A DNA stretch of 47,334 nucleotides from an uncultured Candidatus Melainabacteria bacterium (GTDB lineage: Bacteria > Cyanobacteriota > Vampirovibrionia > Gastranaerophilales > Gastranaerophilaceae), in NCBI GenBank assembly GCA_945910425.1, contig CAMDYM010000009.1:1-47334 (forward strand). The letters run 5' to 3'. A model generated the notes under the pieces. That model was not told the DNA's origin and searched no databases. It saw nothing but the letters and a program-made list of their open reading frames with translations. The first letter of the stretch is position 1, and each line of letters begins with the position of its first letter. The translations under genes and the position numbers were made by a program. Positions 12,724 through 33,990 of this stretch are shown here, piece by piece.

Positions 12724-12747
12724 GTTGGGGTAGAAACCCCAACCTAC
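12724..12747 (-). repeat. REP element (GTAG + hairpin)
   Basis: On the minus strand it reads GTAG, arm GTTGGGG, loop TTTCTA, arm CCCCAAC. It is identical to the copy at 33270-33293 and to the copy inside the transposase at 33574. It sits between the convergent proC and macB-like genes. Confidence 0.85.
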
Positions 12748-24889: not shown

Positions 24890-24998
24890 CCCCTTAAAAA
24901 GACAGTAGGTTGGGCTTTCAGTCCAACAAAACATAAACCCCCAACCTACTATGTCATTACGAGGAGCATGCGACATGGCAATCTCACTTTTTAAGGGG
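24890..24998. repeat. Nested palindromic element with 12-bp terminal inverted repeats
   Basis: CCCCTTAAAAAG (24890-24901) and CTTTTTAAGGGG (24987-24998) are perfect inverted ends. Inside are a REP element (GTAG at 24905, arms GTTGGGC and GTCCAAC), a reverse REP half (CCAACCTAC, 24941-24949), and a GTCATTACGAGGAGCATGCG-type repeat (24953-24986). It looks like repeats inserted in a simple hairpin. It contains no gene. Confidence 0.65.
24905..24927 (+). repeat. REP element copy
   Basis: GTAG followed by arms GTTGGGC and GTCCAAC (one wobble) around TTTCA. Same family as the copies at 33172 and 33270. Confidence 0.8.
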
Positions 24999-33171: not shown

Positions 33172-33194
33172 GTAGGTTGGGCTTTCAGCCCAAC
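33172..33194 (+). repeat. REP element A
   Basis: GTAG at 33172-33175, then a perfect 7-bp hairpin: arms GTTGGGC and GCCCAAC around TTTCA. It begins 8 bases after the accC stop codon and upstream of the RAYT gene. Confidence 0.9.
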
Positions 33195-33269
33195 ATTCTG
33201 TTATATAATACTAATTCGACAATAATAATATATTATAATTTCTTTATGAATTACAAAAGTTAATAGAAT

Positions 33270-33293
33270 GTAGGTTGGGGTTTCTACCCCAAC
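33270..33293 (+). repeat. REP element B
   Basis: GTAG, arms GTTGGGG and CCCCAAC around TTTCTA, 22 bases before the RAYT start. Same direction as element A, 75 bases further on. Confidence 0.9.
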
Positions 33294-33315
33294 TTTTCTA
33301 TTATATACTATATGT

Positions 33316-33990
33316 ATGAATTATAAGCGTGTATTTATTCAAAATAGTTGTGTTCATTTGATAATTGTTGCATATAATCGAAAGCCGATATTTATAGATA
33401 ATATTGACTTACTCCAAAAAGCTATTGATAATGCAATGCAATATTTTCAATTTGAAATTGTTGCTTTTTGTATTTTGCCTGACCATATTCATATTATTAT
33501 AAAACCTACAGATATTTATGAATATCCAAAAATAATTACTTCTATAAAATATTACTTTTCAAAAAATTTTAATGTTGGGGTAGAAACCCCAACCTACAAA
33601 TATTTGAATAATGACGAAAAAGGCTGGGTAGAAACTCCAACCTACAAATATTTGAATAATGACGAAAAAGGCTGGGTAGAAACTCCAACTTGCAAATATT
33701 TGAATAATGACGAAAAAGGTGGGGTAGAAACTTTAACCTACGGATATTTAAATAAAGGTGAAAAGGGTGTTTTTCAAAGAAGATATTATGAACATACCAT
33801 AATCTCAGAAGAAGATTTAAATATCCATGTTGATTATATACACTATAATCCTATAAAACACGGTTATGTAAAATGCGCAAAAGATTGGGAATATTCATCC
33901 TTTAAGGAATATGTTAAGAATGGATTTTATGATGAAAATTGGTGCAATTTTGAAGATAAGAATAAGATTAAGGATTTAAACTATGAATAA
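33316..33990 (+). CDS. REP-associated tyrosine transposase (RAYT)
   Basis: Single-strand HUH nuclease of the Y1 family (TnpA_REP), which recognises GTAG plus hairpin elements. 224 residues: N-terminal YKRVFIQNSCVHLIIVAYNR, the HUH pair in LPDHIHIIIKP (H57, H59), and the late block GVFQRRYYEHTI and HVDYIHYNPIKHGYVK with Y174 the likely nucleophile, then WEYSSFKEYVKNGFYDENW. Between them residues 89-152 are four 16-residue repeats (VETPTYKYLNNDEKGW type) that ordinary RAYTs lack; they come from a captured REP. The frame is intact. It overlaps folC by 8 bases. Confidence 0.9.
   Translation: MNYKRVFIQNSCVHLIIVAYNRKPIFIDNIDLLQKAIDNAMQYFQFEIVAFCILPDHIHIIIKPTDIYEYPKIITSIKYYFSKNFNVGVETPTYKYLNNDEKGWVETPTYKYLNNDEKGWVETPTCKYLNNDEKGGVETLTYGYLNKGEKGVFQRRYYEHTIISEEDLNIHVDYIHYNPIKHGYVKCAKDWEYSSFKEYVKNGFYDENWCNFEDKNKIKDLNYE
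33574..33597 (-). repeat. REP element C inside the RAYT coding region
   Basis: On the minus strand, a GTAG plus GTTGGGG/CCCCAAC hairpin identical to elements B and 12724. It encodes part of residues 87-94 in frame. Confidence 0.9.
33580..33771 (+). repeat. Four tandem 48-bp in-frame repeats
   Basis: Units start at 33580, 33628, 33676 and 33724. Each joins a REP remnant to a gene-like segment ending GACGAAAAAGGC or similar. Unit 1 is the intact one; units 3 and 4 are progressively diverged. Because 48 is a multiple of 3, the frame is kept. Confidence 0.95.

Follow-up and report, generated by a model that had tools for sequence, protein, structure and literature searches.

An inverted REP element within the coding sequence of a Gastranaerophilaceae RAYT gene as a candidate right-hand end of its REPtron

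Among the systems described to date, one of the closest to the locus analyzed here is the TnpA_REP REPtron of E. coli (Bertels group 2; Quentin subclass 2.2), in which, as here, REP elements consisting of a GTAG foot and a hairpin lie around the gene for a REP-associated tyrosine transposase (RAYT). Within the E. coli protein, K82 on helix alpha3 touches a bulge in the REP stem, and residues of beta1, of the region around beta4 and of the C-terminus, including Q95, D100 and R104, contact the GTAG (PMC8266576); insertions between alphaC and beta4 are described as sitting near a region involved in REP recognition (PMC6006769). RAYT genes that carry REPs internally and in frame have been published for subclass 2.4 and, in passing, for some members of subclass 2.8 (Quentin et al. 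2018, PMC6006769). An earlier note on this DNA, made from the sequence alone, was unsure whether the pairing of a RAYT with REPs had been described in this lineage; the pair is not new, both GTAG REPs and RAYTs having been published from Cyanobacteria and other phyla (PMC3733652, PMC6006769). The locus bears on how REPs spread and on why RAYTs persist as single genes beside them.

The window, by which is meant the whole stretch of 47,334 nucleotides analyzed, is contig C9 of a 1.76-Mb genome assembled in 96 contigs from an uncultured Candidatus Melainabacteria bacterium of the Gastranaerophilaceae. Loci and genomes used for comparison are designated by L and G numbers, respectively. The feature that sets the window's RAYT locus apart is a REP inside the RAYT gene (Table 1), which itself lies between accC and folC.

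Table 1. Coordinates of the RAYT gene, its motifs and the REP elements of the window
Feature	Position	Strand	Basis
Dispersed solo REP between convergent genes	12724-12747	-	intact strict match
Degenerate inverted REP pair (REPIN/BIME type), intergenic	24905-24949	.	imperfect-match search
Upstream REP, direct, GGGC type, GTAG foot and 7-bp hairpin, GTAGGTTGGGCTTTCAGCCCAAC	33172-33194	+	exact match
Upstream REP, direct, GGGG type, same sequence as internal REP, GTAGGTTGGGGTTTCTACCCCAAC	33270-33293	+	exact match
RAYT gene (HUH Y1 nuclease)	33316-33990	+	224-aa ORF and profile matches
HUH motif DHIH (H57, H59)	33481-33492	+	translation and alignments
Internal REP, inverted, exact, within RAYT reading frame, encodes VGVETPTY	33574-33597	-	strict match
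48-bp in-frame tandem array, 3.7 copies	33578-33755	+	repeat search
Degenerate internal REP, copy 2	33623-33645	-	imperfect-match search and sequence
Degenerate internal REP, copy 3	33671-33693	-	read from sequence
Degenerate internal REP, copy 4	33719-33741	-	read from sequence
YIHYNP block, catalytic Y174	33835-33852	+	translation and alignments

The identification of the gene as a RAYT by its H57/H59 pair and YIHYNP block, proposed in the earlier note, is confirmed by the NCBIfam RAYT/TnpA_REP model NF047646 (REP_Tyr_transpos; E 9.2e-37, 126 bits against a cut-off of 80), by Pfam Y1_Tnp (E 1.3e-11) and by residue conservation: H57, H59 and Y174 are invariant in an alignment of 25 sequences and, together with N178, are kept in all 107 aligned RAYTs of the family. 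The protein is about 47 aa longer than the NF047646 family model. Membership in the IS200/IS605 group was considered and rejected, because the protein has YIHYNP in place of the Y---Q motif, because the genome contains a single Y1_Tnp match where multiple near-identical copies would be expected, and because the NCBIfam IS200/IS605 model scores only 31.8 bits, below its cut-off of 55. The 3' end of the reading frame overlaps the start of folC (33983-33990), so that the RAYT forms part of an accC-RAYT-folC run in this genome; judging by this overlap, translation of the RAYT and of folC may be coupled.

Both direct GTAG-hairpin REPs that the earlier note had placed beside the gene (at 33172 and 33270) prove to be exact; what it overlooked, while describing gene and upstream REPs correctly, is the internal REP within the RAYT frame. 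Of its two further copies, the one at 12724 is intact, but that at 24905 is only half of a degenerate inverted pair. Its proposed check, a count of the motif against chance, bears it out: the window has four strict matches against 0.00 expected from shuffled sequence, and the window genome as a whole has 19 against none for the reversed pattern. Several of these 19 are paired, a GGGG-type REP facing an inverted GGGC-type REP across a 13-nt spacer in the REPIN/BIME build, and intact pairs built like the degenerate one at 24905-24949 occur elsewhere in the genome. Hence the locus has one hallmark of a REPtron, namely a gene beside cognate REPs of which further copies are scattered through the genome (the upstream REPs, with 19 copies), while the other, an inverted REP 3' of the gene, is missing: within 110 nt beyond the stop codon there is none, and the inverted REP is found inside the gene instead.

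Each 48-bp unit of the array (16 aa) joins a REP-derived part to the coding sequence that follows the REP. The loop encoded here measures 73 aa in the window; in the remaining 106 sequences of the alignment it spans 16-32 aa, with L068 (51 aa) as the one exception. In-frame amplification appears to have raised the internal REP unit of the window copy to four copies, a lengthening that the loop would tolerate.

How general this arrangement is was examined among 111 RAYT loci of the window's family (L001, L021-L130), taken from among the matches listed, of which four were dropped for an open frame shorter than 150 aa (L086, L089, L124 and L128); the remaining 107 are an incomplete sample of the family, and some are near-copies of each other. 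At least 44 of them have a foot-plus-hairpin REP in one and the same loop, between a KYYFSK stretch and an [FW]Q strand, in every case on the inverted strand and in one reading frame. Where both flanks are complete (98 RAYT genes), 36 genes have the inverted REP only internally, 45 only downstream, 4 at both places and 13 at neither, an alternation for which Fisher's test gives p 2.3e-11, a value inflated by kinship, which the test ignores. The hairpin finder behind these counts misses imperfect stems, and 8 of the 13 genes scored as 'neither' turn out by eye to be imperfect or decayed cases: L022, L052 and L059 have an internal REP, L087 and L120 a downstream one, and L039, L043 and L085 a decayed internal REP. 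On a tree built without the loop, the genes with only one of the two positions require four changes, three contrasts falling on starred branches; internal-only genes set against all other rows require 11 changes, at least three of them on starred branches. The independent events behind the alternation are few. Two genes inside the internal group speak for it: L055 combines a decayed internal REP with a downstream REP, and L126 lacks an internal REP and has a downstream one.

The flanked arrangement is probably ancestral, to judge from RAYTs of other families of the order, which have flanking REPs and none inside. Eight RAYT matches were found there in five genomes, and five were examined (G318 being left out): in two of these families L385, L387, L388 (with an altered foot) and L389 carry, by eye, upstream and downstream REPs and none internally, and in a third family L386, which is cut by the contig end before its 3' end, has no internal REP. 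Outside the lineage, a REP between the HUH motif and the tyrosine was found among the 75 scorable of the best 80 contig matches only in L161, itself a family member, though subclass 2.4 is probably under-represented among those 80.

Within the main clade, carrying a REP does not make the loop longer, and for this clade the notion that the internal REP is an added insert was accordingly rejected. A second RAYT clade, with GGTGGGC-type REPs, differs: the REP is downstream in L087 and L120, as well as in the broken genes L263 and L279, whereas L022, L052 and L059 carry it in the same loop as the main clade, in a different reading frame, and their loop is 8 aa longer (32 aa with the REP against 24 aa without), which implies that the REP was added there.

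Such an addition is what one would expect if the internal REP were a tolerated parasite, which landed in a flexible loop and has been carried along without function. This is the strongest alternative to the proposal made below, albeit an unlikely one. REPs inside open reading frames are common (PMC3733652), and REPs, like the Rickettsia palindromic elements (RPEs), enter many genes in frame. The folC N-terminus of two relatives (L068 in G074 and L156 in G307) likewise contains in-frame REP-derived repeats (VGVETPTYDNVETPTYD... in L068), so that the entry of REPs into coding sequences is not confined to RAYT genes, provided that folC translation does not begin at a later start codon. The expanded loops of the window RAYT and of L068 also fit a tolerated passenger, and a single old origin would account for most of the tree. 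A passenger would not be expected, however, to replace the downstream REP, as the internal REP of the main clade does in 36 of 40 genes, nor to settle in one loop in two clades and two frames. It would also have no reason to follow the upstream REP in foot and stem or to show few synonymous differences, as is seen next.

Both upstream and internal REPs are carried by 39 genes, and the 37 pairs that are 24 nt long were compared. All 16 stem positions are identical in 34 of the 37 (permuted mean 10.6) and the feet in 32 of the 37 (permuted mean 21.7). Exceptions include L114, with TCGGA upstream and TTGGGG internally, and L033 and L042, with a GTAG foot upstream and GTCG internally. On starred branches there is one contrast between upstream and internal types per test, and none in the opposite direction. 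The 18 distinct internal REPs, five of them partly decayed, have 95.8% of their stem cells paired, and their covariation score is 0.446, against 0.145 in shuffled alignments (0 of 500 reaching it) and at most 0.09 with the partner slid. Between genes that share a residue, the codon used within the REP is different in 6%, 5% and 20% of the comparisons, whereas elsewhere the figures are 37%, 39% and 46%. Because the type-match and codon tests took only genes with a good-scoring hairpin (thereby excluding L034, L039, L043, L055 and L085, whose internal REPs are decayed), these figures are biased in favor of pairing, type match and low synonymous difference.

The peptide encoded by the REP is less uniform than the hairpin: VGVETPTY occurs 15 times, VGQVCPTD and VGQVCPTY 8 times each, VGLVNPTY 5 times, VGLVKPTY 4 times and four others once each, VGLESPTY also being among the variants. 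Since upstream and internal types match, since pairing is kept despite changes in the peptide and since synonymous differences are few, the internal REP is, by these sequence comparisons, constrained as DNA inside a coding sequence. Either selection on the hairpin or repeated copying from REP to REP could be the cause, the latter of which would likewise yield matching upstream and internal types; both treat the segment as a REP rather than as protein. The converse, that the protein needs VGxxxPTY, that the palindrome is its by-product and that the dispersed REPs derive from the gene, is very improbable. Although the peptide is in one frame in all 44 main-clade genes and adjoins parts of the protein that read DNA, it varies (in five VGxxxPTY forms) while the pairing stays; moreover, the sister gene L126 has TCGG-type flanking REPs without the peptide, the second clade uses another frame, and a need for the peptide does not predict the paucity of synonymous differences.

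A hairpin conserved as DNA within a gene might instead serve regulation, throttling RAYT expression in mRNA or DNA through pausing, RNA cleavage or binding of the protein to its own gene. The hairpin would indeed be part of the transcript, and the literature discusses REPs both in the role of RNA elements and as elements that lower RAYT expression (PMC3733652); yet such a role predicts neither the GT[AC]G foot and its agreement with the upstream REP nor the alternation with the downstream REP, and must be counted improbable.

Two further observations concern REP types. In L398 (G307), which is outside the counts above, another type, TCGGCGTTGCTACGCCGA, occurs both upstream of and inside a RAYT gene, where it encodes VGVATPTY. 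In L026, L031, L032, L035 and L037, a GTCG foot replaces GTAG in upstream and internal REPs alike; under the guide model of REP cleavage, a changed foot should bring a changed cut dinucleotide.

If gene and elements belong together as nuclease and substrates, REP numbers should follow the RAYT. Of 288 family genomes, a RAYT match is present in 103 and strict TTGGG REPs in 164, with a median of 4 REPs in the 103 genomes with a RAYT and 0 in the 185 without (Mann-Whitney p 1.5e-18, a test that ignores kinship); within the window's genus, comparison of 9 genomes with and 11 without a RAYT gives p 0.011. The correlation between RAYT presence and motif count to which the earlier note looked is thus present, but incomplete: 76 of the 185 genomes lacking a RAYT match still carry REPs, so that RAYT presence alone is a loose predictor. 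An extreme case is G041, with 271 strict TTGGG REPs and no RAYT match in the genome, a state that recent RAYT loss, an assembly gap or amplification by another agent could each explain. REPs and RAYTs agree in type as well. The median number of TCGG-type REPs is 23 in the 9 genomes whose RAYT has a TCGG-type internal REP and 1 in the 33 with a TTGGG-type internal REP (p 1.3e-4); for TTGGG REPs the medians are 8 in those 33 genomes, 4 in the 9 and 4 in the 39 with other RAYTs (p 0.0015 for the 33 against the other 48). Counts of GTCG-foot REPs say little: they range from 1 to 9 in the 8 genomes whose internal REP has that foot, including the gene's own REPs, while GTAG-foot REPs lie beside them and GTCG-foot REPs occur in 58 of the 288 genomes overall. 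The pairing of the RAYT with cognate REPs suggested in the earlier note thus gains support from both number and type, and, by analogy with the E. coli enzyme, the window RAYT presumably acts as a nuclease with REPs as its substrates.

The only solved structure matching the window RAYT at E 0.01 is that of E. coli TnpA_REP (PDB 4ER8, E 2.5e-18). In the alignment, the REP-encoded peptide follows the KYYFSK stretch and precedes the FQ corresponding to E. coli Q95; that is, it falls in the alphaC-beta4 stretch, and the loop is thereby placed with the stem-binding helix on one side and the strand region responsible for reading the GTAG foot on the other, going by their positions in E. coli TnpA_REP. 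All 34 RAYTs with a TTGGG-type internal REP have F in the place of W94, and just 2 of the 34 retain R104 (the window has I163 there); GTAG may therefore be read differently in the window's clade than in E. coli. One may speculate, though this is quite unlikely, that the REP encodes the very part of the enzyme that reads it (the loop), and that the same REP makes the 5' half separable, which would let the enzyme disseminate or discard one half of its own gene; if so, replacing the internal REP would change both target and recognition loop in one step.

The explanation that seems probable, though far from assured, is that the window locus is a REPtron whose right-hand inverted REP lies in the coding sequence, so that the upstream and internal REPs are the ends of the unit and processing can split the gene. 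It builds on the arrangement of the REPs, the alternation with the downstream REP, the type match, the constraint on the DNA and the intact catalytic residues, all read directly from the sequences. Against it stand the small number of independent events and the loss of R104, which contacts GTAG in E. coli, from most RAYTs of the window's clade. The RAYT would fold and cut REPs on single-stranded DNA; the ends of its unit would be the upstream REP, cut on the coding strand, and the internal REP, cut on the template strand. Because the right end is inside the gene, a unit running from the REP through the 5' half to the inverted REP covers only the HUH half and not the whole gene, and processing of such a unit could split the gene at the internal REP; ordinary dispersed REP pairs would spread as in other REP/RAYT systems. 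Splitting could either be costly, thereby holding RAYT numbers down, or serve as a means of spread.

Split genes of the kind that this explanation calls for do occur. Of 24 accC-folC intervals, 13 are short (34-115 nt), one of which, L242, keeps half a REP; five (L131, which is the window's, L068, L070, L151 and L022) contain a full RAYT; three (L156, L157 and L241) contain only the 3' part of a RAYT, starting at the inverted REP; and in three (L132, L136 and L159) no RAYT was found. Two further 3' parts beginning at the inverted REP (L252 and L262) are located elsewhere. The reciprocal product is represented by L326 (in G005), which consists of a REP, a frameshifted 5' half and an inverted REP, followed by another REP and other DNA; it is the sole 5'-half unit for which a search over 1.5 kb revealed no 3' half. 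Its protein pieces match L032, which comes from another genus, at 92-100% identity, and its left flank is not shared by the relatives found for an empty-site comparison. L326 and the 3' halves L156, L157, L241, L252 and L262 are consistent with the proposed splitting. Palindromes also promote deletion without any transposase, and in L070 and L068 an extra inverted REP upstream of the gene is followed by 22-24 nt that match the coding sequence after the internal REP (of L070 itself and, for L068, of L046), direct repeats that would allow loss of the 5' half by recombination.

By eye, the break falls at the REP or no more than about 10 nt from it in 17 of 20 copies of internal-REP-type genes, a tally biased upward because half-gene loci were partly chosen for a match ending near the REP; at least three are broken by an insertion sequence (IS). 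Many split genes are explained by an IS or another insert at the REP. Thus L249, L253/L269 and L390 share, by eye, IS ends in the REP loop (like ...TTCAAG / TGAAATGTCC...), and these half genes were rejected as breaks made by the RAYT. The L253 insert encodes an HTH_Tnp_2 protein; in L249, 590 nt contain no ORF as long as 60 aa. It looks as if this IS targets the hairpins of REPs, which have already been published as targets of IS elements (PMC3733652). The half genes L272, L259 and L392 show a different short motif. L267 (G206) was likewise rejected as an isolated 5' half: the longer stretch L283 reveals a decayed 3' half about 1.06 kb downstream, so that roughly 1 kb of other DNA separates the two parts of this RAYT gene. 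In 9 of the 11 stretches L313-L323 (L313-L318 and L321-L323), a REP and an inverted REP delimit a non-coding cassette of about 190-225 bp, with like interiors and different terminal REP types. They were rejected as products of 5'-half deletion, weak RAYT matches occurring only in two of the 11, namely in L319, where no cassette was read out, and in L323, outside its cassette.

In these gut bacteria a nuclease gene overlaps its own presumed substrate, and natural variants have the REP within the gene or outside it, read in another frame, bearing GTCG as an altered foot, or multiplied. Such a series is suited to testing the role of the REPtron's right-hand REP and whether a RAYT processes its own gene. 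The locus also points to a DNA-level constraint, within a coding sequence, on what appears to be the end of a mobile element.

As regards novelty, searches among open-licence papers yielded no report of a right-end REP in the alphaC-beta4 loop replacing the downstream one, of covariation between internal and upstream REPs, or of two such cases in different frames. Internal RAYT REPs as such are already known; as far as could be found, it is the position of the right-end REP in the alphaC-beta4 loop that is new.

Compared with known systems, the window RAYT shares with E. coli TnpA_REP a DH[IL]H motif, YIHYNP and a C-terminal SS motif (from sequence and a table in PMC6006769). Subclass 2.2 is marked by DHLH, YIHYNP, the SS motif and a 10-aa alphaC-beta4 insertion; the window RAYT, whose motifs fit by eye, may belong to it. 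It departs from E. coli in that its REP stems are short and regular, without the bulge that E. coli requires, in that one REP is inside the gene, and in the W94 and R104 substitutions of its clade. With subclass 2.4, as described in PMC6006769, it has in common short repeats and an in-frame REP within the RAYT gene, generally between the HUH motif and the tyrosine. That subclass, however, has NH[IFV]H and YIxNNP, in contrast to the window's DHIH and YIHYNP, and a variable-length insertion domain between beta3 and alphaC, whereas alignment puts the window's REP at a fixed place between alphaC and beta4; its internal REPs are also described as additional to flanking ones, while in the window's family the internal REP usually stands instead of a downstream one. 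Rickettsia palindromic elements resemble the internal REP in being palindromic repeats in frame inside genes, but are described in PMC3733652 with a CGTC tag, in unrelated host genes and with no known dedicated transposase; conceivably, RAYTs may be linked to in-frame palindromes of other bacteria. Finally, like REPINs or BIMEs (Bertels and Rainey 2011), the REPs of the window genome form dispersed inverted pairs, here with the 13-nt spacer; in contrast to these, the REPtron of the window itself has the build of a REP and an inverted REP around half a gene.
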